From Corynebacterium aquatimens (GTDB taxonomy: Bacteria; Actinomycetota; Actinomycetes; Mycobacteriales; Mycobacteriaceae): 64,000 nt of DNA. A model generated the notes under the pieces. The model was not told the DNA's origin. It made no database searches and saw only the letters and a list, made by a program, of their open reading frames with translations. Position 1 is the stretch's first letter. Every line of letters begins with the position of its first letter. The position numbers and the translations under genes are program-made. This document shows positions 4,336 to 54,560 of the stretch, piece by piece. The stretch covers positions 1,302,001-1,366,000 of the forward strand of contig NZ_CP046980.1 of NCBI RefSeq assembly GCF_030408395.1. The letters run 5' to 3'.

Positions 4336-5331
4336 TTATCTTACACTCTTGTAATTCGTAACTGTGGCCTTTGCGCGGGGGTGACTTGTAGCCCACACGT
4401 CGCGGAGATTCTCCGGACTCACGTGCGTGTAGATCTGAGTGGTGGTCACCGACGAATGGCCAAGGAGCTCCTGGACCGTACGCACGTCCGCACCGCCTTC
4501 GAGCAAGTGCGTGGCAAAAGAATGCCGCAGCGTGTGCGGGGAGATTTTCTTATCTATCCCCGCGCGTTTCGCCGCGTCTTGGATGATCGCCCACGCGCTT
4601 TGGCGCGATAGTGCCTTGCCGCGGGTGTTTAAGAACAGTGCGTGAGACGCCCCCGTCGATAAGCATGGGCGCCCGCGGACAAGATACTCGGCGAGCGCGC
4701 CGCGCGCGGCACCGCCCAAGGGCACGATGCGCTGCTTATCGCCTTTTCCCGTCACGCGCAGGAACGCCGCGTCAAGACCAGCTTGGCCGTCACTGCCGCC
4801 CACGTCATCGCTACTGCCAGCGGCGACGAGCTCGCTGACGTCATCAACGCTGAGCGCTAGCGCCTCAGAGACGCGTGTGCCGGTGGCGTAGAGAGTTTCC
4901 AACAGAGCCTTGTCCCGGATCCCGGTTGGAGTGTCCTCGCTGCACGACTCAATCAGTGCCGCGACCTCGTTGATACTCAAGGTGTCGGGAAGCTTCTCCC
5001 CCGCGCTCGGTGGCGACACGCTGGCTGCGACGTCGGCGGGCACGAGGCCTTCGACGGCAGCGAACTTGTGCAGACCCCGGGCGACCACGAGTGCGCGCCC
5101 AGCCGAGGACGCTGCGAGCGGTGATCTGGTTTTCGATCCCCGCCGTAAATCAGCGACGTAGTCTTCCACATCCGTCGTCGTCACCGCGGCAAGGTCGTCT
5201 TTGCCGCAAGATTCGAGCCATTCCACGTAGCGGTTCGCGTCACGCCGGTAGTTGCTCAGCGTGTGCTGGGACGCGCCCCGTTCCACGGCGAGGTGCTCAA
5301 GCCACAGTTGCGCCACCACCCGGGGTGTCAC
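4336..5331 (-). CDS. xerD: Site-specific tyrosine recombinase XerD
   Basis: Works with XerC at dif to resolve chromosome dimers. The SAM-like core-binding domain is N-terminal (about residues 1-100). The catalytic residues of tyrosine recombinases can be read: R in [10 protein letters not shown] in [22 protein letters not shown], then [15 protein letters not shown] with the H and the nucleophile Y. The GTG start overlaps the nudix stop (GTGA). It has 331 residues, somewhat longer than E. coli XerD, mainly through a Gly/Asp-rich insertion near residue 175. Position next to the nudix gene and upstream of parA matches Rv1701. Confidence 0.95.
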
Positions 5332-5993
5332 GTCGTCCGCTTCTTCATGTCCGGGGTAAAGCCTTCCGCACGGCGTCGGCTAGCCATCGCCGTGGGACGA
5401 AGATCAAAGGGGTCGGTCACGGGACGAGGCTCCGCGCGCTTATCCACGACCTCACACGCCGCGAGGATGCCAGAGATCGCGATCGAATTGATGATCTCAC
5501 CGCGCAGAGTCATCGCGCGCGCCTGATCAAGCGACACCCACGCCAGTTCCATGTCCGCTTCCTCTTCTTCGCCTTCTGGCTTATCGACGATCGTAAGGTC
5601 AGTGGCATAAAACACCCGAACCGCTTCTTCCGCGAAACCTGGTGAGGTGATCAGATCAACTAGGACGTGCCAGTTCGATGCGGTAACGCCTGCTTCTTCC
5701 ACCAGCTCACGCTGGGCAGCGATGAGTTCAGATTCACCATCTATATCAAGCAGGCCGGCGGGCAATTCCCACAAACGGCGCCCTACGGTATGGCGGTATT
5801 GCTCCACCATGGCGATCTCATTGTCCGCGTTCACGGCCACGACGGCGACAGCGCCGAAGTGTTCGACGATTTCGCGCTTGGCGGTACCGCCGCCTGGCAT
5901 CGTGACGGTGTCGCGTCGGACAGCGAGAATCGGTGCGTCGATAAGCAACTGCGAATCGAGCGTCTCAAATCTGTGGCGGGGCGTTTCGCTCAT
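5328..5993 (-). CDS. Nudix hydrolase, ADP-ribose pyrophosphatase type
   Basis: Probably hydrolyses ADP-ribose to AMP and ribose 5-phosphate, inferred from similarity to the Rv1700 type. The Nudix box reads [24 protein letters not shown]; six residues instead of five lie between the first Gly and Glu, a variant I associate with the actinobacterial ADPRase. The 221-residue protein has the usual N-terminal beta domain ([28 protein letters not shown]). It is translationally coupled to xerD. In related genomes pyrG lies directly upstream; here it is replaced by a 22-base gap to the steB-type gene. Confidence 0.88.
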
Positions 5994-6015
5994 GCCACAA
6001 GCCTAGCTGTGTCGC

Positions 6016-6978
6016 TTAGGGCTTTTTCGGTGCGGGCGCAACGGCCGTGGAGGCCGAACCATAGGCGCCGACGCCGCCCCGGATCTGTTCTGCGAGCGCT
6101 AAGACTGTGGAGATGCGGCCCGTTTCCGTGTCCGTGGAATCAACGGTGGAAACGTCTTTCTTAGCAATGTCGTTGCCGCGGATCAGACCGAGCGCACCCT
6201 TTGGTTCCGCCGCTGGGAGTCGACCTGCCAGCACCGCAGAACCACCCGCGTCCTGGACGCCCCACGCGAAGTCAGAAGTGATCACCGCGCCAAAGTCACC
6301 ATCTGCGCGGTTGCCTCCTTGCTCCTTGCCGCCCGTGACCACGATGACCCCGTGCGCGGGTTTGATCGTGCCATCTTCGAACGTTAAGAACCCTTTGTCG
6401 CGCAGAGTGCCCAACGTCAGGGCGCGATCTTCCTCAGTGGCGATCGGCTCACGCGACATCGGATCAATCATGACCGCAGCGCCCACTGCCTCACCGGCGT
6501 GGAAACCGGGTGCTTGGTACTCCTTCGCCAACTGCGCGCCCGCCGGAAGGGACGCCGCGACAACAGCTTGGAGTTCATCCGTTGCTTTAGAGTCCATGAA
6601 TTTATCCGTGAGCGCGATGGTTCCGGCGTTGATACCGCCAGCCTGTTCCGCGAGCCAGCGGATCGTGTCCACGTCTTTCGGATCAGCGTCCGGGGTACTG
6701 ATGATGAGAAAGCCTTTGTCGATCAGCGTGCCTGCAACCAGCTCAGTGGAGACCTGGGAGAGCAGCTCATTCGCGGAATCCGCGGACTTGTTCGCCTCCG
6801 CTTCGCCGCCATCGCTTTTCGACGACGAGGCGCCGCCACCGACGTTGTCATAGCCCAAGTTGGTGATCGGTGCCATCGCTGGAGCGATCACGAGCGTGCC
6901 TGCAGCCAAGCCAATGGCGGTACCCCACGCGAGGCCAGAAATCATCCATCCCGCTTTGCCGGAAGAGCGTTTAGACAT
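6016..6978 (-). CDS. MctB/SteB-type envelope protein (Rv1698-like)
   Basis: 320 residues with an N-terminal hydrophobic segment (about residues 11-35: GWMISGLAWGTAIGLAAGTLVIAP), then a domain exported or facing the periplasm. Position and sequence style match Rv1698, called MctB (copper homeostasis, outer-membrane channel) in M. tuberculosis and SteB (cell separation with SteA) in C. glutamicum. Both roles are from the literature as I recall it; the sequence alone does not decide between them. It follows the steA-like gene with a 30-base gap, which suggests that the two act together. A Ser/Ala/Glu-rich linker is near residues 45-70. Confidence 0.8.
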   Translation of the reverse strand: MSKRSSGKAGWMISGLAWGTAIGLAAGTLVIAPAMAPITNLGYDNVGGGASSSKSDGGEAEANKSADSANELLSQVSTELVAGTLIDKGFLIISTPDADPKDVDTIRWLAEQAGGINAGTIALTDKFMDSKATDELQAVVAASLPAGAQLAKEYQAPGFHAGEAVGAAVMIDPMSREPIATEEDRALTLGTLRDKGFLTFEDGTIKPAHGVIVVTGGKEQGGNRADGDFGAVITSDFAWGVQDAGGSAVLAGRLPAAEPKGALGLIRGNDIAKKDVSTVDSTDTETGRISTVLALAEQIRGGVGAYGSASTAVAPAPKKP

Positions 6979-7008
6979 TGATGCGCCTACTTTCTAACCG
7001 GGTGCCGG

Positions 7009-8220
7009 CTATCGGGACGGGTTGAACCAGCCCTGCACGTGGAGGGCGAAGTTATTCCAGGTGTCAATGAGGTTATCGTTGAAGCTGCCGTTACCGGTCA
7101 GCCCCACGACTAGGATGACGGTCGCGAGCGCCACCAAAATGCCCAGGATTGCCCATGCCCATGCGAATCCACCCGCGTTGGACGGGCGGTACAGGGACTC
7201 AATGACCGCAGCGTCCACGATGCGGTAACCGCCCTTGAGGCGAGTGAGTGCCGCGGCCGGGGTTGCGGACTCTTCCAGCGCGAAGATGCTGTCTAGATCC
7301 AGCTCATCGCCAACGGTGACGATGATTTCGGAGTTGTGGAACACGGCGAGCAAGATCGCCAGGTCAGTCGCAGAATCTGTTGCGGCCGGGAAAGTTCGCG
7401 CGCCAACGCCTAGGTCTTGGATGCGCTCCAGACCAGCCGCGTGCCCGTCAGGGTCAGCGGGCAAGATCACCTTCGCATCGCCGCGGAGGTTGTCGGCGGA
7501 GATCTCCGCCGGGTCACCCACGATGAGATCGCAGGAGTAGCCCAGGTCCAACAGCGTGTCCGCAGCAGCGCCAACACCAATGATCACGGGCTGGAACTCG
7601 CGGATAAAGTGGCGCAGGTTGCCAATTTTCTCGCGCGTGTCCACCGCGGGGCTGACCACTAAGACCTTGCGGCCGTCCATCATGTCGCCGAGGTCGGGCA
7701 CGCCCACGCCGTCGACAAGCAATGGCGATTCAGCGTGAATGAACTCGGTGGTGTTGCCGAAGAACGCCTCCATGTTCTCCACGAGGTTACGCTGCGCAAC
7801 GTCGTACGCATCATCCGCAACATCACGCTCCACCGGCGCTGCTTCGGCTACGAGCTTCTTGCCCACGTAAATGTCGCCGCTGGGGTGCACCGCACCCTTC
7901 TTGCCATCGCGGAACGCGCCGCGCAGCTCCGTGCTGGCGTTTTCAAACAGCGGGATGTCCGCGTCCATTAGCAGCAGAGGACCGTAATTAGGCATCTTGC
8001 CCGTGGAGAACTGCGCGAAGTTAATCACCGCGGCCGGACGGGCGTCGGCCAAGAACTGCGCCTCGCGGCGGCTCATATCCGGCGAGTCAACAACGGCGAT
8101 GTCCCCCGCGCCGAGCTTGCGTAGGCCCCTGCCCTTGCCCTGCGGAGTGCAGTCACGAAGGTTGCCCCCGCGCACGCCGGTACGGCCTTCGGTGTCGGAA
8201 GATGGTGAAAAGACGCTCAT
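7009..8220 (-). CDS. SteA-like membrane protein with thiamin-pyrophosphokinase-like fold
   Basis: 403 residues. The central part (about 170-340) resembles the catalytic region of thiamin pyrophosphokinases (VIIGVGAAADTLLDLGYSCDLIVGDPAEIS), and a single transmembrane helix lies near the C-terminus (about 350-375, AWAWAILGILVALATVILVVGL). Homologues (Rv1697, C. glutamicum SteA) lie beside the MctB/SteB gene, and SteA has been linked to the RipC/FtsEX cell-separation pathway. Enzyme activity is not implied by the fold. The short extension after the helix probably faces the outside. Confidence 0.82.
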   Translation of the reverse strand: MSVFSPSSDTEGRTGVRGGNLRDCTPQGKGRGLRKLGAGDIAVVDSPDMSRREAQFLADARPAAVINFAQFSTGKMPNYGPLLLMDADIPLFENASTELRGAFRDGKKGAVHPSGDIYVGKKLVAEAAPVERDVADDAYDVAQRNLVENMEAFFGNTTEFIHAESPLLVDGVGVPDLGDMMDGRKVLVVSPAVDTREKIGNLRHFIREFQPVIIGVGAAADTLLDLGYSCDLIVGDPAEISADNLRGDAKVILPADPDGHAAGLERIQDLGVGARTFPAATDSATDLAILLAVFHNSEIIVTVGDELDLDSIFALEESATPAAALTRLKGGYRIVDAAVIESLYRPSNAGGFAWAWAILGILVALATVILVVGLTGNGSFNDNLIDTWNNFALHVQGWFNPSR

Positions 8221-8272: not shown

Positions 8273-10018
8273 TTAACCCTTCGGATTCTCAGCAGCTTCC
8301 GTCTCCCGCACGTCAACGCGCGCCTTTTCCAACAGTTCCTTCGCGTGCGCGCGCCCCGTCTCCGAATCCTCCATGCCCGCCAGCATGCGGGCCAGTTCCT
8401 CTACCCGTTCCTCATCGCTCAGTTGCACGACCCCCGATGTGACCGAGGAGTCGCCTACGTTCTTTGACACGTGAAGGTGCGCGTCAGCGTACGCCGCTAC
8501 CTGCGGTAAGTGAGTGACCACGATGACTTGGTTGCGGCGCGCAAGGCGTGCGAGCCGTTTCCCGATCTCCACCGCGGCGCGGCCACCCACGCCTGCGTCG
8601 ACCTCATCAAAGACCATCGTGTGGCCACTGCGGTGCGTGGAAAGCACCACCTCAAGAGCCAGCATGACGCGCGAAAGCTCACCGCCCGAGGCACTCGTTG
8701 CCAGCGGCTGCGGCTCCGCCGTCGCATTGGGCGCGAGCCGCAGTTCCACCACGTCCGCCCCATCCGGGCCTGGCTCCCGCGGTTCAACAACCACAGCGAT
8801 GCGGGCCTTCGGCATAGCCAAACCACGCAATTCCGCAGTCACGGCTTTTTCCAGATCGTTCGCCGCACGGGTCCGCGCCGCAGTGAGTTTCTTCGCCCGC
8901 GCGGCCATCTGCTTCTCCGCATCACGCACGGCAGCAGCAAGCTTTTCGACGGCTTCCGCGGACGTATCGATTTTGTCCAGTCGCGCCAAGGCCTTGTCCC
9001 GCCATGCAAGAACCCCGTCGATATCGGGGGCGTACTTACGCGTCAGGGTTTTCAACTCCTGCTGGCGGGTCAGCAACGTATCCAGCTCCCCTGGATCACT
9101 GGGCAGCCCAGCGAGGTAGCGGCCAAGCTCGCCGGAAATATCCGATAGCTCCGACGCCACCTCGCTTAGCCGTTCGCCGAGCTCTTTGAGGGCTTCATCG
9201 CTTGACGACGACAGCGCGCCACTAGCGTGGCCGATCAAAGTTGATGCCGGTTCTTCTTCCCCATAGCCGCCACCGGAGGGATCCCCGTCGAGCGCGGTCA
9301 GCGCTAGAGTCGCTGCGTCATGCAGTGCATCCACGTCTTGGAGCCGCTTAATCGTTGCAATGAGTTCTTCGTCTTCACCGGCGACAGGTTCCACGGCGTT
9401 AATCTCATCCACCGCAAAGCGAAGACGATCGACCTCCTGCTCCAACTCCCGGCGTTGCTCCGTGCGCTGGCGCAGATCCTTGGCCAGCTCGCGCCACGTT
9501 GACCACGCCGAAACATAGCCGTCACGGATTGCTTCAATCTCCGGGGCGAACGCATCTAAGGCACCCAACTGCTCCGCCGGTGCAAGCAAGCGCAGCTGGT
9601 CGTTCTGGCCATGAATGGTGAGCAACCGGGACGTGATCTCCCCCAAAGTTCCCGCCGGCACCGTTCTGCCCCCGAGGTGCGCGCGGGAACGCCCCGTCGC
9701 TTTCACCGATCTGGCCGCCACATATTCGCGATGGTGACCGTCACCGGAATCATCCGCTTGTGCGCCGGTTTCCGCGATCGCCGACATGAGCGCGGTGTCG
9801 TCTTCATCAACAGCGAAGACTCCCTCAACGACAGCCTGGTCAGAACCAGTTCTTACTTTCGAGGAATCCGCCTTGCCGCCGGACAACAACCGCAAGCCCG
9901 TGACCACCATGGTCTTACCAGCACCCGTCTCACCAGTGAGCACGGTCAGCCCAGGAGAGAACTCCACCTGCGCGTGCGGAATGACTCCCAAGTTGGTGAT
10001 AGATATATCGAGAAGCAT
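8273..10018 (-). CDS. recN: DNA repair protein RecN
   Basis: SMC-like ATPase acting in double-strand-break repair. The N-terminal Walker A is LTGETGAGKTMVVTGL. Long coiled-coil arms fill about residues 170-390. The C-terminal half has the ABC signature ATSASGGELSRVMLALEVVL and Walker B MVFDEVDAGVGGRAA, then VIVVTHLPQVAAYAD. 581 residues, normal for RecN. It is downstream of nadK and tlyA as in mycobacteria. I saw no clear LexA box in the 24 bases separating it from nadK, so SOS control, if any, acts further upstream. Confidence 0.95.
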   Translation of the reverse strand: MLLDISITNLGVIPHAQVEFSPGLTVLTGETGAGKTMVVTGLRLLSGGKADSSKVRTGSDQAVVEGVFAVDEDDTALMSAIAETGAQADDSGDGHHREYVAARSVKATGRSRAHLGGRTVPAGTLGEITSRLLTIHGQNDQLRLLAPAEQLGALDAFAPEIEAIRDGYVSAWSTWRELAKDLRQRTEQRRELEQEVDRLRFAVDEINAVEPVAGEDEELIATIKRLQDVDALHDAATLALTALDGDPSGGGYGEEEPASTLIGHASGALSSSSDEALKELGERLSEVASELSDISGELGRYLAGLPSDPGELDTLLTRQQELKTLTRKYAPDIDGVLAWRDKALARLDKIDTSAEAVEKLAAAVRDAEKQMAARAKKLTAARTRAANDLEKAVTAELRGLAMPKARIAVVVEPREPGPDGADVVELRLAPNATAEPQPLATSASGGELSRVMLALEVVLSTHRSGHTMVFDEVDAGVGGRAAVEIGKRLARLARRNQVIVVTHLPQVAAYADAHLHVSKNVGDSSVTSGVVQLSDEERVEELARMLAGMEDSETGRAHAKELLEKARVDVRETEAAENPKG

Positions 10019-18971: not shown

Positions 18972-20420
<1,449 letters not shown>

Positions 20421-20492: not shown

Positions 20493-21689
20493 GCCCGCTT
20501 CGCGATCGCGCTTGTTTGCAATCTCGCTGGACAGGCCGTGGAGTTTGACAAAGCCCTTGGCGTGGGACTGGTCGAAGGTGTCGCCGGTGTCGTACGTTGC
20601 CAGGTTGAAGTCGTACAGCGAGTGGTCGGAGCGGCGGCCGTTGACGGTCGCGGTGCCGGCGTGGAGAACCATGCGGATGTCACCGGTGACGTGCTCCTGG
20701 GTGGACTCGATGAAGGCATCAAGGGAGCGCTTGAGCGGAGCAAACCACAGACCGTCGTAGACTTCCTCGCTCCACCGGGCGTCGATAAGCCTCTTGTAGC
20801 GCGCGAGCTCGCGCTCGATCGTGACGTCCTCGAGTGCCTCGTGGGCGGTGATCAAAGCGATAGCGCCCGGGGCCTCGTAGACCTCGCGGGACTTGATGCC
20901 CACCAGGCGGTCTTCCACCATGTCCAAACGGCCGATGCCCTGGGCACCAGCGCGGCGGTTCATTTCCTCGATGGCTTCGAGCACGGTGACCTTGCGGCCG
21001 TCGATTGCGGTAGGCACACCGGATTCGAAGGAAATGATGACCTCATCGGGAGCATTACCAATCGACGGCTCGTCGGTGTATGCGTACAGGTCCTTTGTGG
21101 GCGGGTTCCACAGGTCCTCCAAGAAACCGGTTTCCACCGCGCGGCCCCAGACGTTCTGGTCAATGGAGAACGGAGAGGACTTCGACTGCTCAATCGGCAG
21201 GTCCTTGCCCTCCGCGTAGGCGATAGCCTTGTCGCGCGTCCACGCGTAGTCGCGGGCCGGGGCGATGATCTTCAGGTTCGGGTCCTGGTTGACAAAGCCA
21301 ACTTCAAAACGAACCTGGTCGTTGCCCTTACCAGTGCATCCGTGGGCGACGTGCGTGCCGCCGAATTCCTTGGCTGCCTCAACGAGGTGCTTGACAATGA
21401 GGGGACGGGAAATCGCAGACACCAGCGGGTACTGCTTCATGTACATGCCGTTGGCTTTGATGGTGGGCAGGCAGTACTCGTTAGCAAATTCATCGCGGGC
21501 ATCAACGACGATGGACTCGACAGCGCCACACTCCAGCGCGCGTTTGCGAACGGACTCCATGTCTTCGCCGCCCTGGCCGAGGTCCAGAGAAACAGCAACG
21601 ACTTCGCCTTCAGTCATTTCGGCGAGGTACGGAATGGCGACAGACGTGTCTAGGCCGCCCGAGTATGCGAGAACAACGCGATTAGTCAT
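20478..21689 (-). CDS. argG: Argininosuccinate synthase
   Basis: Joins citrulline and aspartate using ATP. The N-terminal PP-loop [18 protein letters not shown] and the signature [13 protein letters not shown] are intact. 403 residues, normal. It follows argR by 11 bases and precedes argH. The C-terminal codons are covered by a 22-base tandem duplication that does not change the reading frame. Confidence 0.97.
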
Positions 21690-21700
21690 GATGTGGAAAT

Positions 21701-23211
<1,511 letters not shown>

Positions 23212-30366: not shown

Positions 30367-31458
<1,092 letters not shown>

Positions 31459-32848: not shown

Positions 32849-33832
32849 CTCTGGCCTCAGGGGCTCACTTTCGACATCGCCACGATTGACAACCGTCTAT
32901 CGCGCCGCAAGCTCTTGGGCTTTCTCGGCATCGGAGCTGGTTCAGCAGCGCTCGCCGCGTGCGCGCCGGGCATGTCAGCTAACTCACCGTCCGCCTCATC
33001 AAGCGGGACAAGCACAGGCTTATCGACGATCGGTTCAGGCACCGCCACTGAAAACACTGTCCCATCGGAGACGATGACGGAGACAAAAACCGAAACCGGC
33101 GGCCCGTACCCGGGCGACGGGTCCAACGGCCCGGATGTGCTGGAGAAGGTCGGTGTGCAACGCCGCGACATTCGCTCCTCTATCGGCGGCAGCGCCACGG
33201 CAAGCGGCATCCCGATGACCCTGCGGATGAACGTCATCGACATGGTCAATGGCAACGCTTCGATGGTAGGCGCGGCGGTCTACATCTGGCATTGCGATGC
33301 TGCCGGCGGGTACTCGATGTATTCCGAGGGTCTTGAGGATGAGACGTATCTGCGCGGCGTTCAGGTCACCCGCGACGACGGTTCGGTGGAGTTCACCACG
33401 ATCGTGCCCGGCTGCTACCCGCACATCCACTTCGAGGTTTTCCCGGACGTCAACTAGATTACGGACGCGTCAAACGCGATTCTCACATCTCAGATCGCCA
33501 TCCCGGCCGAGGTCTGCGATGCCACCTTCAAGACCGACAATTACGAAAACTCGGTGGCACCCTATTCACGAACATCGCTGGAGTCAGACAGCATTTTCAG
33601 CGACGGCTGGGACGACCAACTCCCAGAATTCACCGGCACCATCCAGTCCGGTTATGACATGACGCTCGACGTGGCCATCGACACCTCCACCCCCAACACC
33701 GGCGGCGGTATGGGTGGCCCCGGTGGCCAACCACCGCAGGGCGGGCCTGGCGGCACTCCGCCGACTGGTGCCCCGCCGGCGGGTAAGCGGCCCAGCGGTA
33801 GTCCGCCGACCGGGATGCCTGCCCCGCGGTAG
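32822..33832 (+). pseudogene. Intradiol ring-cleavage dioxygenase-like lipoprotein, broken by an in-frame stop
   Basis: The frame opens MKERTSGARLWPQGLTFDIA, then a Tat/lipoprotein signal (SRRKLLGFLGIGAGSAALAAC). The intradiol core follows: VGAAVYIWHCDAAGGYSMYS, YLRGVQVTRDDGSVEFTTIVPG and HIHFEVFPD. A TAG at 33455-33457 stops it, but the same frame continues at once with ITDASNAILTSQIAIPAEVC to a Gly/Pro-rich tail ending at 33832. Between PGCY and PHIHF the short GRW-type loop usual in the family is missing. The first 10 codons overlap the trmH fragment, so the native 5' end is probably lost as well. Unless the stop is read through, the enzyme is inactive. Confidence 0.85.
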
Positions 33833-34234: not shown

Positions 34235-35049
34235 TACGCCTCCTCCCCCAGGTTCCGGCAGGACTCCCACAGGCAGATCGCGGCGGCGGTGGAGAGGTTC
34301 AGCGATTCCGCGGAGCCCCGGATAGGGATGGAGATTCTGTGGTCGGCGAGCTGCGCCACCTCGTCGCTCAGCCCGTGCGCCTCGTTTCCGAACAGCCACG
34401 CGGTGGGTTTTTCCAGGATCTCGTCGGCCTCGTCGAGGTACACCTCGCCGTTCATCGTGGTGGCGGCGAGCTGGAGGCCCGCGTCGCGCAGCTGCCCAAG
34501 GGCGCGGCGGATGTCCCGGTCGCGCACCACGGGCACGTGGAACAGCGATCCCGCAGTGGAACGCACCACCTTCGGGGATTCAGGGTCTACCGTATCGCCG
34601 GCGAATAGCACGGCGTCGGCACCCAAAGCGTCGGCAAGCCTGATGATCGTGCCCGCGTTGCCCGGGTCGGCGGCCTCAACGCACACCGCGATGAGCTTTG
34701 GTTTGCCCTTAATGATTGACGGCAGGGTCCATAGCGCGGGTCTGCAAACGGCAAAGATTCCAGTCGTTGTCACGGTATCCGACAAGTATTCGGCAGCCTT
34801 GTCCGTGATCGCGTGCGTGTAGACGTCCATGTAGTCGGCGGTGGTCACTATCTCCGCGAACTCAGTGGCGGCTGATTCGGTGACAAACAGATCGGTAGCA
34901 GCGCCCGTCGCAACCGCGGCGTCGACTGCATTGAACCCTTCCGCGAGGAACCGGTCTGCTTTCTTACGTCCGGCGGCGCGCTTCAATTTCGCCGCATTGA
35001 CCACACGCGGGGTGCGTTCGGTGAACGGTTCAGCAAAATCAAGCGCCAT
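34234..35049 (-). CDS. TrmH/SpoU-family RNA 2'-O-methyltransferase
   Basis: 271 residues. The N-terminal substrate-binding part (RFLAEGFNAVDAAVATG) is followed by the knotted SPOUT domain: CVEAADPGNAGTIIRLADALGADAVLFA (motif 1), TAWLFGNEAHGLSDE (motif 2) and IPIRGSAESLNLSTAAAICLWE (motif 3). Such genes next to pheS-rplT methylate 23S rRNA or tRNA; the target is not known here. A diverged fragment of a paralogue lies 1.4 kb away on the same strand. Confidence 0.92.
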   Translation of the reverse strand: MALDFAEPFTERTPRVVNAAKLKRAAGRKKADRFLAEGFNAVDAAVATGAATDLFVTESAATEFAEIVTTADYMDVYTHAITDKAAEYLSDTVTTTGIFAVCRPALWTLPSIIKGKPKLIAVCVEAADPGNAGTIIRLADALGADAVLFAGDTVDPESPKVVRSTAGSLFHVPVVRDRDIRRALGQLRDAGLQLAATTMNGEVYLDEADEILEKPTAWLFGNEAHGLSDEVAQLADHRISIPIRGSAESLNLSTAAAICLWESCRNLGEEA

Positions 35050-37958: not shown

Positions 37959-40151
37959 ATGACTCAACCACCATTGCCTGGTGGACGCTCACCGGGGGGA
38001 CCGGAAGATGAAGCTCTACTTGCTCGTGCTCACGCCGCCACGCACAACCTCAAGCTAGCTGTGAGCGAAGCCTCTGCGCTTATCGACGATCTGAGTAAAC
38101 GCATCTCGGAAGCACACGCTTCAGTTCCTTCCACGGTGCCAGCGCAGGAACAACCAGGACCTGCGAAGGAACGACCTGCGCAGGAACGAGCTGTACCAAC
38201 GCCGGCCGCTGCAGTGGGCGCCCCGCAGCCTCCGCACGAGCCAGTGCCGGCGCACGCTGCTGCCCCTGTGCCTGAACCAGCTATGCAGCCGCAGCACCCC
38301 CAGTACCCCGGTGCTCCGATGATGATGCCGGCGCCGAAACCGAAAAAGCAGCTCACCACTGAGCAGAAGGTGTTGCGCACCCTGGCGGTGCTGGGATCGT
38401 TGATCACGCTCATTGGTGTCGGCTACGCGGTGGCTCTGGCTATCCAGTCCGGCCTGATCGGCCCGCAGATGAGGGCTATCCTGCTGGCCCTGTTTGCCTT
38501 CGCGCTGCTCGGCATCGGAATCTGGGTGGACAGATCCAAGGGTTCCTCGGTAGGCGTTACCGCCTTGTACATCACCTCATTCTTCGTTGGTGTTGCGGAC
38601 ATCGCCTACATGACTACCGATGAGGTGGGATGGTTCAACATCACCGGCGCCGCGATAGCTCACGCAGTGTGGTGGTTACTGCACCTGGCAGTGGCTATGT
38701 GGAGGAAGAACACAGCCGTCATTTTGTTGATGGTGTGCGGGCTCATTTTCTACTTCTACGGTTTCATGATTCCGTCGGCTTCCGATGTGAAGACGCACTT
38801 CGTCTCACAGATCATCACCGTCTTGCTCATTCCACTGACGGTTGGAGCAACCTGGCTCGTTCCGGCAGACCAACGCAAACTCGATGTCGGCAGGATCCGT
38901 ACTGCAGCTGGTGTCATTTTCTTCTTCATGGTGGTAATCCCCAGGTGGACCACGAGGGAAGGGATTTTCTCCTACTTCGTTGTGCTCGGCACCATGCTGC
39001 TTTTGATCGCATTGCTGTTCGTGATCACCGAACTTTATGCCCCGATCGATGAAACGTTGGATGGCTCGGCCGACGCCAAGTCTGCGCCTAACCCGCCGGA
39101 CGATGGTTCAAGGAACCGCCCGCAACAGCTCCATCCTGGAGCTAGTGTTCACCGCGCCGTGTCCATCATCATCGTTCCTGCGCTCCTTGCCCTCGCGGTG
39201 ACGACGCATTCAAGGAATTGGGAACACTGGATGATCCCTGTCTTCGCGGCAGTCACGCTGGCGTTGATCTACTTCGCGTCGAACGGCGGCACGAACGATA
39301 CCAGCGATGGTTCCCCCGAAAACAGCAGTGGTTCCCCCGAACGCGGCTCCCGGAGCGGATCCGGCAACCGATTCCTCATGCCAGCAGTCCTGCTGTTCGG
39401 CTCATCCTTCTTGACGCCGTACTTTGGTTTCGCATTAGGAGAAACAAACCGCACGGTTGCACAAGATGGCTCCAGTTTGATCAAGTCATATCTGGTTCTG
39501 GTCATCTTTGCGCTGGCATTCGCGCCGGTCGCGGCGATCATGGCAAAGCGTGAACTCAACCGAGGCGCGGTCATCGTTTGGTGGGGAGCCATGCTGGCCA
39601 TCCTCACTATTGACCTTCTGCCCGTGGTGCTCGTTGGCCCAGAGACATCCAAGGCGGTCATCCCGATCCTGATCCGCGCGGTCATTCTCTTTGCAATCAT
39701 CTTCGCGGTGCTGAGCCAAAGCTGGTTGTGGCGCAACCAATCAACAGGGGTGACCACAGTCATGGGCGCGGGCTTCCTTTACTTCAGCACGCTCGCGATG
39801 GTCAACCTGTCTATCTCCCTGGCGGGTCTCGTAGACGTGGATGCTAAGAGGACTGGCTTCATCATCGGCCACGCCGTGGTGTCGGTGTCGTGGATCCTCA
39901 TCGCGTCGTGGTTGTTGCTCACGCGCAAGCCGCCGATTGCGGAGAACGCGGCCCTGACGCTTGGCTTGATCCTCACCATCGCGGCGTCGGTCAAGCTCGT
40001 GTTCTTCGATCTAGCGTCGCTCAGCGGCATTACCCGTGTGCTCGCGTTCATCGTTTCCGGTTTGCTGCTGCTAGCAGTCTCCGTGATTAGAGCCCAGCGC
40101 AACAACGAACCGCAAGAGCCAGCTCCTGCCGCGCCGGGGCCGCAGCTCTAA
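37959..40151 (+). CDS. DUF2339-family polytopic membrane protein
   Basis: 730 residues. A soluble N-terminus with a helical segment (LLARAHAATHNLKLAVSEASALIDDLSKRISEAH) is followed by a Pro/Ala/Gln-rich linker (about 60-125). From about residue 140 the protein is a near-continuous series of hydrophobic helices, I estimate about 18 (e.g. LAVLGSLITLIGVGYAVALAI, AILLALFAFALLGIGIWV). The pattern and the GIGIWVDR-type turn after helix 2 fit the DUF2339 family. A Ser/Gly/Asn-rich cytoplasmic or outer loop lies near 440-475. AGGGAG precedes the ATG. Function unknown. Confidence 0.82.
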   Translation: MTQPPLPGGRSPGGPEDEALLARAHAATHNLKLAVSEASALIDDLSKRISEAHASVPSTVPAQEQPGPAKERPAQERAVPTPAAAVGAPQPPHEPVPAHAAAPVPEPAMQPQHPQYPGAPMMMPAPKPKKQLTTEQKVLRTLAVLGSLITLIGVGYAVALAIQSGLIGPQMRAILLALFAFALLGIGIWVDRSKGSSVGVTALYITSFFVGVADIAYMTTDEVGWFNITGAAIAHAVWWLLHLAVAMWRKNTAVILLMVCGLIFYFYGFMIPSASDVKTHFVSQIITVLLIPLTVGATWLVPADQRKLDVGRIRTAAGVIFFFMVVIPRWTTREGIFSYFVVLGTMLLLIALLFVITELYAPIDETLDGSADAKSAPNPPDDGSRNRPQQLHPGASVHRAVSIIIVPALLALAVTTHSRNWEHWMIPVFAAVTLALIYFASNGGTNDTSDGSPENSSGSPERGSRSGSGNRFLMPAVLLFGSSFLTPYFGFALGETNRTVAQDGSSLIKSYLVLVIFALAFAPVAAIMAKRELNRGAVIVWWGAMLAILTIDLLPVVLVGPETSKAVIPILIRAVILFAIIFAVLSQSWLWRNQSTGVTTVMGAGFLYFSTLAMVNLSISLAGLVDVDAKRTGFIIGHAVVSVSWILIASWLLLTRKPPIAENAALTLGLILTIAASVKLVFFDLASLSGITRVLAFIVSGLLLLAVSVIRAQRNNEPQEPAPAAPGPQL

Positions 40152-40197: not shown

Positions 40198-43047
40198 TTA
40201 GACAATGTCGGCGAGGAACTGGCCGGTGAAGGATCCGTCCACCTTCGCAACATCCTCCGGGGTTCCGGTAGCCACAACGGTTCCGCCGCCGGCGCCGCCT
40301 TCAGGCCCCATGTCAATGATCCAGTCCGAGCACTTGATCACATCCAAGTTGTGCTCGATGACCACCACCGAGTTGCCTTTGTCCACGAGCCCGTCGAGCA
40401 CCATCATCAGCTTGCGGATGTCTTCAAAGTGAAGACCCGTGGTTGGCTCGTCAAGGATGTAGATCGTGCGGCCGTTGGAGCGCTTCTGCAGTTCCGCTGC
40501 GAGTTTCACGCGCTGCGCCTCACCACCGGACAAGGTGGTGGCGGACTGACCAAGCCGGACGTAGCCCAACCCCACGTCGACAAGCGTGCTCAAGTACCTG
40601 TGGATTGAGCTGATGGGCTCAAAGAACTCAGCCGCTTCTGCAATCGGCATGTCCAGAACCTCTGCGATGTTCTTGCCTTTGTAACGAACCTCGAGGGTCT
40701 CGCGGTTGTAGCGCGCACCATGGCACACTTCGCACGGCACGTAGACGTCCGGCAGGAAGTTCATCTCAATCTTGATCGTGCCGTCACCATGGCACGCCTC
40801 GCAGCGTCCTCCCTTGACGTTGAAGGAGAAGCGCCCGGCCTTGTACCCGCGGACTTTCGCTTCCTGCGTCTCAGCGAAGAGGTTGCGGATCTTGTCGAAC
40901 ACGCCCGTGTACGTCGCCGGGTTTGAGCGCGGCGTGCGACCGATCGGGCTTTGGTCCACCTGAACGAGTTTGTCCAAGTGCTCAAGGCCGCCAACATTCT
41001 TCACGCGGCCCGGCACTTGGCGCGCACCATTGAGGCGGTTTTGCAGCGTGCGCGCCAGGATCTGGTTCACCAGAGTCGATTTACCAGAGCCCGAAACGCC
41101 AGTCACCGACACCAGTACACCAAGCGGAATATCCACGGACACGTTGTCCAGATTGTTCTCACGCGCACCGTTGATGCGGAGCATTCGCTGCTTATCGACG
41201 GGCCGACGCGTCTCCGGAACCGCAATCTCCTTGCGGCCGGCGAGGTAGTCCCCGGTCAGTGAGTTCTTTGCTTTCTTGATGCCAGCCGGTGTTCCTTGGT
41301 ACACCACTTCCCCGCCGTATTCACCGGCCAGCGGCCCGATGTCGATCAGCCAGTCGGCTTCCCTAATCGTGTCTTCATCGTGCTCCACAACAACGAGCGT
41401 GTTGCCAATGTCGCGCAGTTTCTTCAGCGTAGCGATCAGGCGCTGGTTATCCCGCTGGTGCAGACCAATGGAAGGTTCATCGAGAACGTAGAGCACGCCA
41501 GCCAGACCGGAACCAATCTGCGTCGCCAAGCGGATGCGCTGGGCCTCACCGCCAGAGAGCGTTCCCGCAGAACGCGACAGGGTCAGGTAGTTCAACCCCA
41601 CGTCGATGAGGAAGCGCAGGCGCGCCTGAATCTCACGCAGAACAGCACCGGCGATCATTTCCTCGCGGTAGCCAAGAACGAGGTTGTCCAGATACTCGCT
41701 GGCGTCTTCCACGCTTAGCGCCGCCAGACCCGCGATGGATTTCTCCCCGTGCGTAGATGAATCAAGCCGCACGGCAAGAATCTCCGGTTTGAGACGAGCC
41801 CCACCGCACGTGGGACACGGCACGTCGCGGGTATACGCCAGGAACCGTTCCTTGACGCGCTCGGAGTCGGTTTGCTCAATCTTGCGGTTGAGGTAGCCGA
41901 TCACTCCCTCATACGCAGCGGAGAACGTGCGCTGGCGGCCATACCGGTTGCGGTAACGCACCGTCACCTTCGTCGACGAACCATGAATAAGGTGGTCGCG
42001 GTCTTTCTTGCGCAGCGAGGAAAACGGCGCGTGCGGATCAAAGCCCTCCGCTTCACCGAGAGCGACGATGAGTTTGGTGAAGTACCCCTTGTTCGGGCTG
42101 GAGTTCCACGGCTGGAACGCGTCAACCGCAGGAGCATCCGGGTCCGGGATCACCAGGTCCGTATCAATCTCCTTCCTCATCCCCAGACCGTCGCAGGCTG
42201 GGCAGGCACCAAACGGCGAGTTGAAGGAGAACGCACGCGGCTCGTATTCCTCGATGTTCAGGGTGTGCCCATTCGGGCACGCCATTTTCTCGGAGAAAAT
42301 CACGTACCGGTCATCGTCGTCCTGATCACGTTCGACGAATTCGAACGCAACCAGGCCGTCGGCAAGCTTAAGCGCCGTCTCCACGGAATCCGTGAGCCGC
42401 TGCTTCTGGCTTTCCTTGACCGTGAGGCGGTCCACCACGACGTCGATCGTGTGCTTGATCTGTTTTTGCAGCTTCGGTGGGTCGGTGAGCTGGTATGTTT
42501 CCCCGTCCACGTTGACGCGCGCGAAGCCTTGCGCCGCCAGGTCCTTGAACAGGTCCACGAACTCGCCCTTGCGGCCACGCACAATCGGAGCAAGCACCTG
42601 GAATTTCGTGCGCTCAGGCTGCTCCATCACCTGGTCAACGATCTGCTGCGGCGTTTGACGCTCAATCACCGCGTCACACTCAGGGCAGTGCGGCGTGCCC
42701 GCGCGGGCGAACAGCAAACGCAGGTAGTCATAGATCTCTGTAATCGTTCCCACCGTGGAGCGCGGGTTGCGGTTGGTGGATTTTTGGTCAATGGACACCG
42801 CGGGCGACAGGCCATCAATGTATTCAACATCAGGCTTATCCATCTGCCCCAAGAACATGCGCGCATAAGAGGAGAGGGATTCGACGTAGCGACGCTGTCC
42901 CTCGGCGAAGATCGTGTCGAAGGCTAAAGAGGATTTACCGGACCCCGAAAGCCCAGTAAACACCGTCATTTTGTCGCGCGGCAGCTCTACATCAATTCCT
43001 TTGAGATTGTGTTCGCGCGCGCCGCGTACGGTTAGCTTATCTGCCAC
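40198..43047 (-). CDS. uvrA: Excinuclease ABC subunit A
   Basis: DNA-damage sensor of nucleotide excision repair. Two ABC modules: Walker [18 protein letters not shown] near residue 35 and [17 protein letters not shown] near 640; signatures [19 protein letters not shown] and [19 protein letters not shown]. Zinc-site cysteines are seen in [15 protein letters not shown] and the CEACHGDG...[10 protein letters not shown] pair. 949 residues, full length. It is convergent with the DUF2339 gene and divergent from the metallo-hydrolase gene. I saw no SOS box in the 68-base divergent region. Confidence 0.97.
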
Positions 43048-43102
43048 GTTTCATTCCCGCCGTAAAGTTGATAGGTCCTCTAGCGATGCTACCGAAGACA
43101 AC

Positions 43103-43116
43103 TATCGTGGGACCCA
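43103..43116 (+). promoter_or_regulatory. -10 element placing the transcript start at the ATG (leaderless)
   Basis: TATCGT at 43103-43108 is followed after 7 bases by the ATG at 43116, and no Shine-Dalgarno sequence precedes that ATG. This is the layout of leaderless mRNAs, frequent in corynebacteria. No clear -35 element is visible. Confidence 0.5.
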
Positions 43117-43727
43117 TGGCTACCAACACCTCCCCGCTTACTCTCGCGCGCACGAGCGTCTCAAGCATGGACAACAATTGCTACCTGTTGTGCTGTGGTA
43201 CGCAGGGCTTGCTTATCGACGCCGCGGATGACGCCCCAGCCCTACTTGCCCTGGCGCGTGACAACGGCGTAGAAATCACCGATGTTTTGACCACGCACCG
43301 GCACTACGACCACGTACGCGCGCTCGCCGACATCCTTAAAGAAACCGGTGCAACGCACTGGGCCTCTCATCTGGATGCACCCGCCCTGCCGGTTGCTCCG
43401 GATCACGAGCTCACCGAAGGCGACTCGGTCAACTTCGCCGGTCATGAGTTCCCCGTCCACATTCTTCGTGGCCACACCCCCGGCGGCGTCGCCCTCGTCG
43501 CTGAGATTGATGGCACAGTCAATCTCTTCGTTGGCGATTCCCTTTTCCCCGGCGGCCTAGGCAAAACCGCTTCCGACGGTGACTTCCTGCGCCTGTTCAA
43601 AGACGTCACCGCGCGGCTTTTCGACGCATACCCTGACGACGTCATCGTGTGGCCCGGCCACGGAGAACCGACCACGTTGGGTGACGAACGCCCGAAACTA
43701 CCCGAATGGCTCGAGCGTCGGTGGTAG
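43116..43727 (+). CDS. Metallo-beta-lactamase-fold hydrolase, glyoxalase-II type
   Basis: 203 residues. The metal-binding motif HxHxDH is [12 protein letters not shown], then [24 protein letters not shown] (bridging Asp) and GHGEPTTLG, the set seen in glyoxalase II-like thioester hydrolases. The N-terminal [30 protein letters not shown] fits the small MBL-fold hydrolases found beside uvrA in actinobacteria. The substrate is unknown. The start is chosen on a probable leaderless promoter; the frame opens at 43068. Confidence 0.88.
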
Positions 43728-45230: not shown

Positions 45231-47603
45231 GTGGGACACCACGAACACGACGAAGACTTCTCTTCCACGACGTCGAAGCCCGTTAAGCGCATGAGCGCCA
45301 ACGACAACGCCATCATCGATGAGGAGCAGCGCTACGTCGATACCCTGTTCGCCCACCTCGATCAGGAAGTCGCACACGCACAAAAGCGCCTCGCCGACGT
45401 GCAACGCGACGTCGACCCAGAAAACCCCGACGCCGACGCCCTCGTGCGCCGCGAAACCGAATACCACGGTCTCAACGCCAAACTCGACGACCTCAACGTC
45501 GCCGAAACCGGCCTCGTATTCGGCCGCATCGACGTCGAGGACCCAGACCCCGAAAACCCCGTCGCAGCGCCTGGCGGCGCTGCGACGAACGACGAAAAGA
45601 GCGGCGCTGCGACGACAAACGAACTCGCGGGCGGCGCTGTCGATCGGCGCTACATCGGCCGCATGGGCCTCGACGACCGGGCTGACAACTACCGGACACT
45701 GCTCCTCGACTGGCGGGCACCCATGGCACGGCCCTACTACCTAGCCACCACGGCACACCCCGAAGGCGTGCTGTCGCGCCGGAACATCCGGATGAAGGGC
45801 CGGACTGTCACAGCCGTGGACGATGAGCGGTTGTCGGGAAAAGAGGTTGTGGGGGAATCGTCGATAAGCGAAAGCTCTGATGTAAGCAGCGAAGCGGCGC
45901 TGCGGCGGGCGATGAATGCGCCGCGCACGGGGTACATGCAATCGATCGTGGAAACCATCCAGCGTGAGCAAGATGAGATAATCCGCGAGCCTTCGCGCGG
46001 CGTCGTGGTCGTTGGCGGTGGCCCGGGAACCGGTAAAACTGCGGTTGCGCTTCATCGCGTGGCGTACCTTATGTACACGTGGCGGGAGCAGCTGACGCGC
46101 ACCGGCGTGTTGATCGTAGGACCGAACCGGACGTTTCTTGACTACATTTCGCGGGTTCTGCCTGAACTCGGTGAAACAGGCGTAGTGCTGTCCACCGTGC
46201 AGGATCTTGTTCCTGGCTTTAGGCCGCTGCGGACGGAATCGCTGGTCGCGCGGGAGGTCAAGGGGTCGGGTGAGATGGTGGCCATTTTGAAGCGGGCGGT
46301 GCAGAACCTTCAAACTGTTCCTGCGGCAGCGACGACCGTGACCATCGATGGCATTGAGCTGGACGTGACCCCAGCGATGATTAAGCAGGCGCGGACGCGC
46401 GCGCGGCGATCGCGGAAGCCGCACAACCTCGCGCGGCCCTACTTTGCTGAGGCGCTAACGGAGTCGATCGCGCAGGCACTCGCTGCGCGCATCGGTGAAG
46501 ATCCGCTGGGCGGAACCAACTTGTTGTCGCGGGCGGACGTGGATCAGCTCCACGATGACCTAGCCGACGACCCGCAGATCCTCGCCCTGGTTGATGAGCA
46601 TTTTCCGCAGCTCACACCCGTCGATGTGCTCGCTGGCCTGCTGGGCAGCCGTGAGGCAATCGCCGCCGCAGCCTTTGATTACGACGACATCACCCAAGAC
46701 GCGCTGTACCGCGAAGACGCCACCGCATGGACACCATCGGACACTGCGCTTATCGACGAACTTTATACCCTAATCGGGCTCACCAGCTCTGCCGAGGAAA
46801 AGGACAAACAGGAACAGCAATGGCGCGAACTCGTGGCCGAAGCCGAGGACGCACTGGACATCCTGGCATCCTCTGAGAACACCGACAACGACGACGAATT
46901 TGAAGCTGAGATCCTATCTGCCCACGACATCATCGATGCGGAAACGCTGGCGTCCCGCCAGCGGGAAACCGACGTGCGCTCCACCGCGCAACGCGCCCAA
47001 TCCGACATGACCTGGGCATACGGGCACGTGATCGTGGATGAAGCCCAAGAGCTCTCCCCGATGGAATGGCGCATGGTCTTCCGTCGCTGCCCCGCCCGGT
47101 GGATGACCCTCGTTGGCGACCCTGCCCAGACGTCCTCCCCCGCCGGCGTCGACTCCTGGGACGATGCCCTAGAACCCTTCGTTTCTGGCCGGTTCACCTA
47201 CCACGAGCTGAGCGTGAACTACCGCACTCCCGCCGAGATCATGGAACTCGCCGACCGGATCCTTGCCGTCATCGAAGCCGCCGGTTCGTTTGACCAGCCG
47301 CAGCTAGCCGAATCCCCGCACGGCACCGTGACCGTCCGCTCCACCGGGGAGCCGGTACATTTCCTTCCCTCCGGCACCGACATCGATGCTGTCCGCACCG
47401 AACTCGAAGCCCGCGGCGGCCTCGTCGCGGTCGTTACCGCAGACAACGTCCACGACGTGAAGGGACTCGAGTACGACCACGTCATCGTCGACTCCCCCGA
47501 AAACATCGTCGATGCCTCACCCCAAGGCTGGCAGGATCTCTACGTCGCCGTGACCCGCGCAACCCAATCACTCACCGTGATCGGCCCGCTCGACCTGCCC
47601 TAG
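45231..47603 (+). CDS. UvrD/Rep-type helicase-like ATPase of the HelD/HelR group
   Basis: About 790 residues from GTG 45231, with AAGGAGG eight bases upstream; a TTG one codon earlier is also possible. The N-terminal coiled coil (DEEQRYVDTLFAHLDQEVAHAQKRL) is the arm seen in HelD. Motifs: Walker A VVGGGPGTGKTAVALHR, Walker B VIVDEAQELSPMEWRM, motif III TLVGDPAQTSSPAG, motif IV VNYRTPAEIMELA, and KGLEYDHVIV...LYVAVTRATQSLTVIG. Members remove stalled RNA polymerase from DNA, and some give rifampicin tolerance (HelR). RNA-polymerase recycling is an inference here. An Ala/Gly insertion is near residues 110-135. Confidence 0.88.
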   Translation: MGHHEHDEDFSSTTSKPVKRMSANDNAIIDEEQRYVDTLFAHLDQEVAHAQKRLADVQRDVDPENPDADALVRRETEYHGLNAKLDDLNVAETGLVFGRIDVEDPDPENPVAAPGGAATNDEKSGAATTNELAGGAVDRRYIGRMGLDDRADNYRTLLLDWRAPMARPYYLATTAHPEGVLSRRNIRMKGRTVTAVDDERLSGKEVVGESSISESSDVSSEAALRRAMNAPRTGYMQSIVETIQREQDEIIREPSRGVVVVGGGPGTGKTAVALHRVAYLMYTWREQLTRTGVLIVGPNRTFLDYISRVLPELGETGVVLSTVQDLVPGFRPLRTESLVAREVKGSGEMVAILKRAVQNLQTVPAAATTVTIDGIELDVTPAMIKQARTRARRSRKPHNLARPYFAEALTESIAQALAARIGEDPLGGTNLLSRADVDQLHDDLADDPQILALVDEHFPQLTPVDVLAGLLGSREAIAAAAFDYDDITQDALYREDATAWTPSDTALIDELYTLIGLTSSAEEKDKQEQQWRELVAEAEDALDILASSENTDNDDEFEAEILSAHDIIDAETLASRQRETDVRSTAQRAQSDMTWAYGHVIVDEAQELSPMEWRMVFRRCPARWMTLVGDPAQTSSPAGVDSWDDALEPFVSGRFTYHELSVNYRTPAEIMELADRILAVIEAAGSFDQPQLAESPHGTVTVRSTGEPVHFLPSGTDIDAVRTELEARGGLVAVVTADNVHDVKGLEYDHVIVDSPENIVDASPQGWQDLYVAVTRATQSLTVIGPLDLP

Positions 47604-50696: not shown

Positions 50697-50707
50697 GCTT
50701 ATCGACG
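50697..50707 (+). repeat. Intergenic copy of an over-represented 11-mer (GCTTATCGACG)
   Basis: This 11-mer occurs 13 times that I could find. As GCTTATCGACG on the plus strand: 5579, 33018, 38078, 41190, 43211, 46748 and 50697. As CGTCGATAAGC: 4654, 5936, 20780, 32753, 45859 and 53930. This copy lies in the divergent region between uvrB and the secreted-protein gene, so it is not explained by codon choice. By chance 0.03 copies would be expected in 64 kb on two strands at equal base use. Confidence 0.75.
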
Positions 50708-53634: not shown

Positions 53635-53661
53635 CCCACCGCGCGTGTACCCCCAGAGGAG

Positions 53662-53685
53662 GGTATGGTTCCCCCAGAACATACC
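53662..53685 (+). promoter_or_regulatory. Near-palindrome upstream of the double-HTH regulator gene
   Basis: GGTATGGTTC-CCCCA-GAACATACC is an inverted repeat lacking one base in the right arm, 66-89 bases before the regulator start. A direct repeat TCGTTCA follows at 53702-53708 and 53721-53727. Either could be the operator for the regulator itself; the palindrome could also be a terminator for the preceding gene, though no T-run follows. Confidence 0.4.
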
Positions 53686-53713
53686 GCAACAGAATTGAAT
53701 CTCGTTCAAAACG

Positions 53714-53751
53714 TTGCGATTCGTTCACAGGTTTCAATAAGCTTGCAAGCA
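53714..53751 (+). promoter_or_regulatory. Promoter giving a leaderless regulator mRNA
   Basis: TTGCGA (53714-53719) and TAAGCT (53738-53743) are 18 bases apart. The ATG at 53751 begins 7 bases after the -10, with no ribosome site between. One copy of the TCGTTCA repeat lies between the -35 and -10, where a bound repressor would block RNA polymerase. Confidence 0.5.
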
Positions 53752-54560
53752 TGACTGTCGCAAGCCCCTACCCCGCCGCGCGCGAGGCGATTCGGGCTGC
53801 CGGTCTAAAACACCGTGAGGTGGCTGCGCAGATGGGCCTGGACCCATCGAAGCTATCCAAGTCGCTCTCAGGGATTCGCAAGTTCAATTCCCAGGAATGG
53901 CAGCGTCTCTCGGAGATCACGGGAGTGACCGTCGATAAGCTGCAAAGCTCTGAAGTTCCGCGCGAGGTTGCGATGAACCGTAAGGACTTTGCGGCGCGGC
54001 GGCGAGCGATTGTGGATGCCGCGTGGCCGATGTTTGCGCAGTACGGGTACACCCCCGTCACCATCGCGGACATCGCGCAGGCGACGGGCATGTCCACCGC
54101 AGCGGTGCTGTATTACTTCCCCTCAAAAAACGCGATCTTCTTGGCCACGCTTGCCGTGTGCTCCGAAGAAGCAGCCGCACGGCGAACGTTCATCGACGCC
54201 ATCGATGACCCCGCCGAGCGGCTGTTGGCGTTTGCGGCCGTCGTCCTCGACGGGTCGGATGAATCGAAGCGCGAGTGGGCGACGTGGGCGCAATTCTGGT
54301 CCTCCTCCCCTGCTTTTGAAGACGCGAAGCACGCGACCGCGATCGCGTATGACCGGTGGCAAGAGCAGCTGCGCAGCATCGTGAAAGAGGGGTATGAACG
54401 TGGTCGTTTTGATACGGCCAATCCGGAAGACATGGTCAACGCGGTCACCGCGATGATCGACGGGCTGGGGGTGCGCCTGCTGGCAGGTGTGCTCACGCCG
54501 CAAGCCGCGCACGACGCTGTGACGGCCTACCTGAACACGTGGATTAAGGAGAACATATAG
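53751..54560 (+). CDS. Transcriptional regulator with an XRE-type HTH fused to a TetR-type HTH
   Basis: 269 residues. Residues about 8-68 look like an XRE/lambda-repressor helix-turn-helix (AIRAAGLKHREVAAQMGLDPSKLSKSLSG...WQRLSEITGVTVDKL). Residues about 80-130 are a canonical TetR HTH (RRRAIVDAAWPMFAQYGYTPVTIADIAQATGMSTAAVLYYFPSKNAIF). The C-terminal ligand/dimer domain (WAQFWSSSPAFEDAKHA, RGRFDTANPEDMVNAVTAMIDGLGVRLLAG) fits BetI/KstR-like TetR proteins. It precedes the ABC transporter genes by 2 bases and should control that operon and itself. Confidence 0.88.
   Translation: MTVASPYPAAREAIRAAGLKHREVAAQMGLDPSKLSKSLSGIRKFNSQEWQRLSEITGVTVDKLQSSEVPREVAMNRKDFAARRRAIVDAAWPMFAQYGYTPVTIADIAQATGMSTAAVLYYFPSKNAIFLATLAVCSEEAAARRTFIDAIDDPAERLLAFAAVVLDGSDESKREWATWAQFWSSSPAFEDAKHATAIAYDRWQEQLRSIVKEGYERGRFDTANPEDMVNAVTAMIDGLGVRLLAGVLTPQAAHDAVTAYLNTWIKENI

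Follow-up and report, generated by a model that had tools for sequence, protein, structure and literature searches.

A 64-kb window of the Corynebacterium aquatimens genome (the whole stretch analyzed: 64,000 nucleotides, positions 1,302,001 to 1,366,000 of contig NZ_CP046980.1) contains 13 exact copies of the 11-mer GCTTATCGACG. We found that this word is one form of a split word, GCTTNNCGACG, which probably acts like a DNA uptake (self-recognition) sequence and has dialects among the species of this Gram-positive genus. An earlier sequence-only reading of the window had named three speculative candidates for the 11-mer: a DNA-uptake-like sequence, an HIP1-like repeat, and a site for a chromosome-structuring protein. 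Of these, uptake fits best with the density, the dialects, the even strand use, and the absence from mobile DNA, whereas the HIP1-like repeat fits poorly and the chromosome-structuring site less well.

The 13 copies reported previously, seven on the plus and six on the minus strand, were all exact. Their excess over chance was also confirmed, as dinucleotide shuffles of the window gave a mean of 0.03 copies and a maximum of one. All single-base variants were then counted in 464 kb of the genome holding the window (G000; 2,524,396 bases, 2.52 Mb), comprising the window and 20 stretches of 20 kb. Here, 99 exact copies were observed against 0.4 expected under the Markov model that had been proposed as a check, so the count is not close to the Markov expectation. 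Variants at positions 5 and 6 occurred in 10–24 copies each (less than 1 expected) and those at positions 1–4 only occasionally (0–10 copies each), while positions 7–11 (CGACG) were almost invariant, with 0 or 1 copy per variant. Because variants are common at positions 5 and 6 and nearly absent at 7–11, the real unit is the split word GCTTNNCGACG, with NN at positions 5 and 6; the near-copies with other bases noticed earlier belong to this wider set. In the same sample, AT was favored at NN (109 of 293 sites), and T followed at position 12 in none of the 99 exact copies and in 11 of the 293 split sites. The window contains 33 copies of the split word (1.2 by chance). In the whole genome, 515 exact copies (258 plus, 257 minus) and 1,447 split copies (728 plus, 719 minus) were counted, against 0 (0 + 0) and 48 for the words read backwards, which is the copy number expected of a DNA uptake sequence. 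The density is approximately one split site per 1.7 kb, and the overall spacing is near random (coefficient of variation 1.07).

A survey of 242 Corynebacterium genomes, in which excess was judged against the reversed word, showed that 167 genomes carry GCTTNNCGACG at five or more times the control (195–1,964 copies, median 1,094); a further 13 have 1.75 to 5 times the control, and 62 are at background. Twenty-eight relatives found through the SteA-like protein were all Corynebacterium, and GCTTATCGACG was present in every one of their genomes (5–686 copies), including C. glaucum (499), C. urinipleomorphum (529), C. tuscaniense (407), and C. minutissimum ATCC 23348 (161). Genome G064 is taken by us to be C. 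glutamicum, as its aspartokinase matches PDB 3aaw along its full 421 residues, its OdhA matches 8p5t over residues 37–1257, and both structures are of C. glutamicum proteins; it carries 306 exact and 1,183 split copies. Outside the genus, 113 genomes from 30 further genera of the same family showed nothing comparable (highest ratio to the control approximately 2.6), and among the 31 genera sampled the word is restricted to Corynebacterium.

The word occurs in lineage-specific variants with a fixed core, as expected of dialects. A second version, GCTTGCCGATG, first met in the low-copy genomes G001 and G106, is present in 133–478 copies in 14 of the 242 genomes and in 37 or fewer in every other genome. 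Thirteen of these 14 are at background for GCTTNNCGACG, and one, G023, has some of both; 49 of the 242 genomes, G011 included, lack either main version. Within GCTTNNCGACG, the preferred NN is AT in C. aquatimens and GA, TG, or TA in G070 and G055, and A is preferred at base 12 in G021 (72 of 79) and G035 (59 of 84). In the substitution tables, GCTTGCCGATG leaves position 6 free and usually has G at position 5, and the word of G070 and G055 is loose at both; positions 7–11 are strict in all of these, with 0–2 copies per variant. When 17 low-copy genomes were sampled for cryptic dialects, two proved to carry GCTTGCCGATG (G001 and G106), two were rich in GCTTNNCGACG with another NN (G053 and G070), one held an unrelated word (G011), and the other 12 yielded none that was clear.

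The word in G011 is ATGACGYCGCG ([AT]TGACG[CT]CGCG), represented by 30 copies of ATGACGCCGCG in 155 kb and strict at most positions; it is possibly an independent uptake word. In addition, a slight excess of GCTTGCCGATG was observed in G127, G027, G031, G156, and G185 (29–37 copies, control 0–6), perhaps a decaying dialect. G127 clusters with the dialect-2 genomes in a tree of the pilus ATPase TadA.

Strand use was even. Over the 167 enriched genomes, the strand totals were 91,291 and 91,381, and the per-genome imbalance was smaller than that of coin tossing (standard deviation of z 0.79, lower-tail p = 4e-5, a nominal value as the species are related), seemingly because neighboring sites alternate locally. 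When orientation was mapped by chromosome half, with the contig start assumed as the origin, the plus and minus counts were 76:70 and 63:63 in C. aquatimens, 23:24 and 17:15 in G021, 25:19 and 16:24 in G035, 20:24 and 17:21 in G055, and 16:13 and 21:19 in C. glutamicum (G064). No consistent or significant replichore bias was found in these five species. The word occurs in both orientations without replication bias, as expected of an uptake sequence; it shows neither the strand bias relative to replication of Chi nor the orientation switch at the terminus of the FtsK-guiding motif KOPS.

Neighboring copies alternate in strand more often than they repeat it: 171:100 in C. aquatimens, 38:34 in G021, 44:33 in G035, 46:30 in G055, 51:35 in G070, and 52:30 in eight named relatives. 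The pooled count was 402:262 (nominal p = 6e-8) and that of a larger set 470:308; GCTTGCCGATG showed the same trend (33:25), which was not significant alone. In 1.5 Mb, which includes mutually orthologous stretches of the named relatives and is to that extent not independent, same-strand pairs were depleted at distances of 100–300 bp (23 vs. 48.5 expected), 300–600 bp (45 vs. 71.9), 600–1,000 bp (69 vs. 94.2), and 1,000–1,500 bp (91 vs. 115.1). Opposite-strand pairs in both geometries were at or slightly over expectation below 1.5 kb (ratios 0.95–1.24). As controls we used 360 7-mers of similar count, the first set (split 9-mers) having held only the motif itself. The same/opposite ratio of the motif was 0.58, and none of the 360 controls was as low (mean 1.26, minimum 0.91); its alternation fraction was reached by eight of them. 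A copy thus seems to make another redundant only if both lie on one strand, no more than approximately 1.5 kb apart.

The word was thin or absent in the mobile DNA that we looked at. In C. glutamicum, eight 20-kb stretches (160 kb) held 69 sites, 6–11 each, while three 20-kb stretches (60 kb) of a prophage region of lower G+C content, presumably prophage CGP3, held none. In C. aquatimens, no site was found in the 20 kb of an insertion sequence cluster (L044, 1,920,001–1,940,000), in which all six proteins tested are transposases (two each Mutator, IS3-like, and Mu/IS21-like). Another 20-kb stretch (L041) contained one site; its first 12.7 kb (L041:144–12724, genome positions 1,560,144–1,572,724) resemble a DISARM island with DrmA, DrmB, a C5 methylase, and helicases, DrmB scoring over the profile cut-off and DrmA below it (881 bits, cut-off 950). 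Phage BFK20 has one site in 43 kb, where 0.68 would be expected by chance.

Compared with the DNA uptake sequences (DUS) of the Neisseriaceae, the word has another sequence and belongs to a Gram-positive genus with a mycolate outer layer, whose one pilus ATPase found in each genome is a Tad ATPase where its type was determined; strand-specific spacing is a further difference. These elements (10–12 bp, with ComP as receptor) are like the Corynebacterium word in length, in being non-palindromic, in their thousands of copies, in having species-characteristic dialects built on a common core that is short and rigid, and in their scarcity within genomic islands (PMC3630211, PMC7371117); drastic DUS loss is described for Neisseria islands (PMC7371117). 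Their density is one per 400–1,100 bp, compared with approximately one per 1.7 kb here (PMC3630211, PMC7371117). The uptake signal sequence of the Pasteurellaceae (AAGTGCGGT; proposed receptor PpdA/ComN) is similar in copy number (1,471 in Haemophilus, 1,447 in C. aquatimens), has two dialects, and does not favor either orientation along the chromosome (PMC1939737, PMC12616744, PMC5217627). Taken together, the density, the mostly exclusive dialects, the strict core beside free positions, the even strands, and the loss from mobile DNA resemble the uptake sequences of both families (PMC3630211, PMC1939737, PMC7811141, PMC7371117).

The genes expected for a competence machine are present in Corynebacterium, but species without the word have them too. 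ComEC was found in 241 of the 242 genomes and DprA in all 242; each of the 42 genomes examined for the pilus has one T2SSE-family ATPase over the cut-off, which in C. aquatimens is TadA by family. All three are near universal and were rejected as discriminating genes. In C. aquatimens, comEA (SLBB and helix-hairpin-helix domains) directly precedes comEC, and each of the eight loci that were read, including two from wordless species, has a comEA homologue. As to the dedicated word-binding minor pilin that an uptake system would be expected to have, minor-pilin-like open reading frames (ORFs) follow flp at each of 19 tad loci, from word-bearing and wordless genomes alike: usually two, but one seen in G142, and one long ORF with Ns in G112. 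The second such ORF of C. aquatimens matches the Rv3654c-type family TIGR03816, and the first matches TadE_Rv3655c weakly, below the cut-off. The ATPase match was strong in all 18 word genomes (17 plus G011), and among 24 wordless genomes it was strong in six and weaker in 18. The weaker class formed a clade of its own in a small TadA tree for all four members read (G007, G048, G065, and G142), whose loci retain tadA, tadC, and flp together with one or more minor-pilin-like ORFs; ssd was not found in the tad locus of G065. Because the weaker class forms a clade and keeps the tad genes, we rejected it as a functional association with wordlessness, confounded as it is with ancestry. The three weakest DprA matches (G028, G162, and G112) all lie in genomes with neither word (chance approximately 0.008, ancestry ignored). 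Micrococcus luteus is not known to have an uptake word. In this actinobacterium, which like Corynebacterium has tad genes, these genes are needed for transformation (PMC4322843), and in Corynebacterium tad is a candidate machine.

These features suggest how the word might work. A surface receptor of a natural-transformation machine would prefer DNA bearing the word, and biased uptake followed by recombination would disseminate that word across the core genome and maintain it, which would make it a mark of DNA from the same lineage. Lineages differing slightly in receptor preference would give rise to dialects. We infer that the word is read during uptake and that its orientation determines which way the DNA enters. 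Each strand would then require a series of words of its own at regular intervals, and the redundancy of same-strand copies alone would be accounted for. The machine may be the Tad pilus together with ComEA/ComEC. We are evenly divided on the more specific proposal that Corynebacterium, including C. glutamicum, is naturally competent, with a sequence-specific, strand-polar, and dialect-bearing uptake by a Tad pilus rather than type IVa, independent of the Neisseriaceae and Pasteurellaceae, in which each word directs entry to one side.

Chi, KOPS, and HIP1 are likewise short words over-represented in core genomes, but Chi and KOPS are polar with replication and HIP1 is a palindromic octamer, whereas the Corynebacterium word is neither polar nor palindromic. 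A strand-polar recombination or repair signal of the Chi kind, which an enzyme moving along DNA reads from one side, would account for the same-strand exclusion of copies, as well as for the core-genome enrichment and the loss from mobile DNA, which are features of Chi sites too. We nevertheless consider it unlikely: Chi is strand-biased relative to replication, in contrast to the even counts by half and in total given above, and dialects would need a new enzyme specificity together with the replacement of some 1,000 sites without drive. When an uptake receptor changes, a word spread by biased uptake can be replaced genome-wide, and dialects are easier to explain in this way than by site-by-site selection on a thousand copies. 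Less likely still, the word could be bound by a protein of the nucleoid or of chromosome segregation, its even distribution serving to organize the chromosome. The even strand use, the strict core, the density, and the sparsity in foreign DNA would suit such a protein, and Karlin et al., as cited in one paper, gave this interpretation to the evenly spaced word of Haemophilus (PMC1939737). However, orientation is the same in both chromosome halves, spacing in C. aquatimens is near random overall and regular only within a strand, 49 genomes have neither word, the form of the word differs between lineages, and the word is missing from mobile DNA.

We consider it very improbable that the word is a repeat like HIP1, maintained by mutation or methylation and without a role in uptake. 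Its great abundance in a single genus and its location mostly within genes would agree with this, but it lacks the palindromic form of HIP1, the strict positions 7–11 beside two free ones look like protein recognition, and strand-specific spacing is not expected from mutation bias. We give almost no credence to codon or protein bias (Leu-x-Asp, Val-Asp-Lys), an explanation already dismissed in the sequence-only reading. According to a hand-made gene list, on which all frame assignments rest, 19 of the 33 window sites are sense, 10 antisense, and four outside called genes. Sixteen of the 29 genic sites are in the Leu-x-Asp phase, as such a bias would predict, and the remainder are spread over three other frames, including three sense sites in the phase that gives TTA where the word is exact. 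The reversed control near zero, the Markov count, and the lack of a comparable excess in 30 related genera refute it.

Several observations weigh against an uptake sequence. Natural transformation in Corynebacterium was not reported among the matches listed in the open-access literature, preprints excluded, and the same matches describe no Corynebacterium uptake word. The com, tad, and dprA genes are also found in wordless species, so the machinery does not predict the word, and the weaker ATPase match in 18 of 24 wordless genomes follows clade where checked. No clear substitute word emerged from the 12 low-copy genomes G007, G008, G010, G020, G027, G028, G042, G112, G120, G123, G127, and G131, where the best binned 10-mer scores were 6–27, compared with 56–115 in G011, G070, and C. 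aquatimens; these negatives are weak because the 40-kb scan also missed the 532 split copies of G053. Individual species sometimes show little alternation (38:34 in G021). Close inverted pairs at gene ends, which are typical but not defining of uptake sequences and are used as terminators in Haemophilus, are rare, with four of 271 neighbor pairs in C. aquatimens being inverted and less than 60 bp apart. Uptake in Haemophilus is reported to be orientation-independent (PMC1939737), which does not predict strand-specific spacing, although directional transport there was reportedly described by Barany in 1983. In a published survey that looked for spaced pentamer pairs in 569 genomes, three Corynebacterium species are named for CRISPR-related patterns (PMC5217627).

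A strong sequence preference in DNA uptake is described, in a 2020 paper, for two Gram-negative families (PMC7811141). If the uptake reading is true, Corynebacterium would be a third case, Gram-positive and with another pilus type, and would show that DNA self-tagging has arisen more than once. It would also predict natural competence in the industrial workhorse C. glutamicum and suggest a way to raise its DNA delivery; the absence of the word would mark foreign DNA in more than 160 genomes, and dialects would act as barriers that limit exchange among species. The spacing of same-strand copies is a quantitative clue to the mode of action of such words.

A comparison of orthologous positions had been proposed, and we compared window positions 1–24,000 with ten named relatives in aligned blocks (approximately 72% nucleotide identity; the comparisons are not independent). 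Among 50 site comparisons, 14 were intact, five had one mismatch, and 31 had two or more, while random places were intact in approximately 6% and had one mismatch in approximately 19%. The alignments suggest, on small numbers, that sites are kept whole or lost, mostly lost.

The exact copies in the window include four sense sites reading Leu-Ile-Asp, at 5936..5946 (minus), 20780..20790 (minus), 38078..38088 (plus), and 46748..46758 (plus), and two sense sites in the TTA phase, at 4654..4664 (minus) and 33018..33028 (plus). Antisense copies lie at 5579..5589 (plus), 41190..41200 (plus, in uvrA), 45859..45869 (minus), and 53930..53940 (minus). Of the rare codons quoted in the sequence-only reading, those at 4654, 33018, and 45859 fit, while TTA Leu at 32753 is unsupported because this copy (32753..32763, minus) lies between called genes. 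The copy at 50697..50707 (plus) is intergenic, as had been stated, 40 bases upstream of uvrB. The copy at 43211..43221 (plus) and a split site, GCTTTTCGACG at 43616..43626 (plus), are outside called genes, but both fall inside an ORF (43068–43727) that is absent from the hand-made list.

The other split sites on the plus strand are GCTTTTCGACG at 6814..6824, 8941..8951 (in recN), and 31176..31186; GCTTGACGACG at 9200..9210 (in recN); GCTTTACGACG at 55075..55085; GCTTGCCGACG at 58002..58012; GCTTCACGACG at 60358..60368; GCTTGTCGACG at 61477..61487; and GCTTCGCGACG at 63087..63097. Those on the minus strand are GCTTGTCGACG at 7710..7720 (in the steA-like gene) and 40575..40585 (in uvrA), GCTTACCGACG at 20225..20235, GCTTCTCGACG at 22105..22115, GCTTCCCGACG at 29870..29880 (in pheT), GCTTGCCGACG at 34629..34639 and 42357..42367 (the latter in uvrA), GCTTGGCGACG at 41521..41531 (in uvrA), and GCTTGACGACG at 59210..59220 and 62964..62974.

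Two local clusters were also observed. In G028, a CRISPR-like array recognized by eye (L060:2594–3360) repeats a unit with GTATACCAGGG every 64–65 bp in 12 copies. In C. aquatimens, seven copies of CAAATGCTCGT in both orientations lie within approximately 275 bp at about 2,047,930–2,048,205 (L045:7931–8205).

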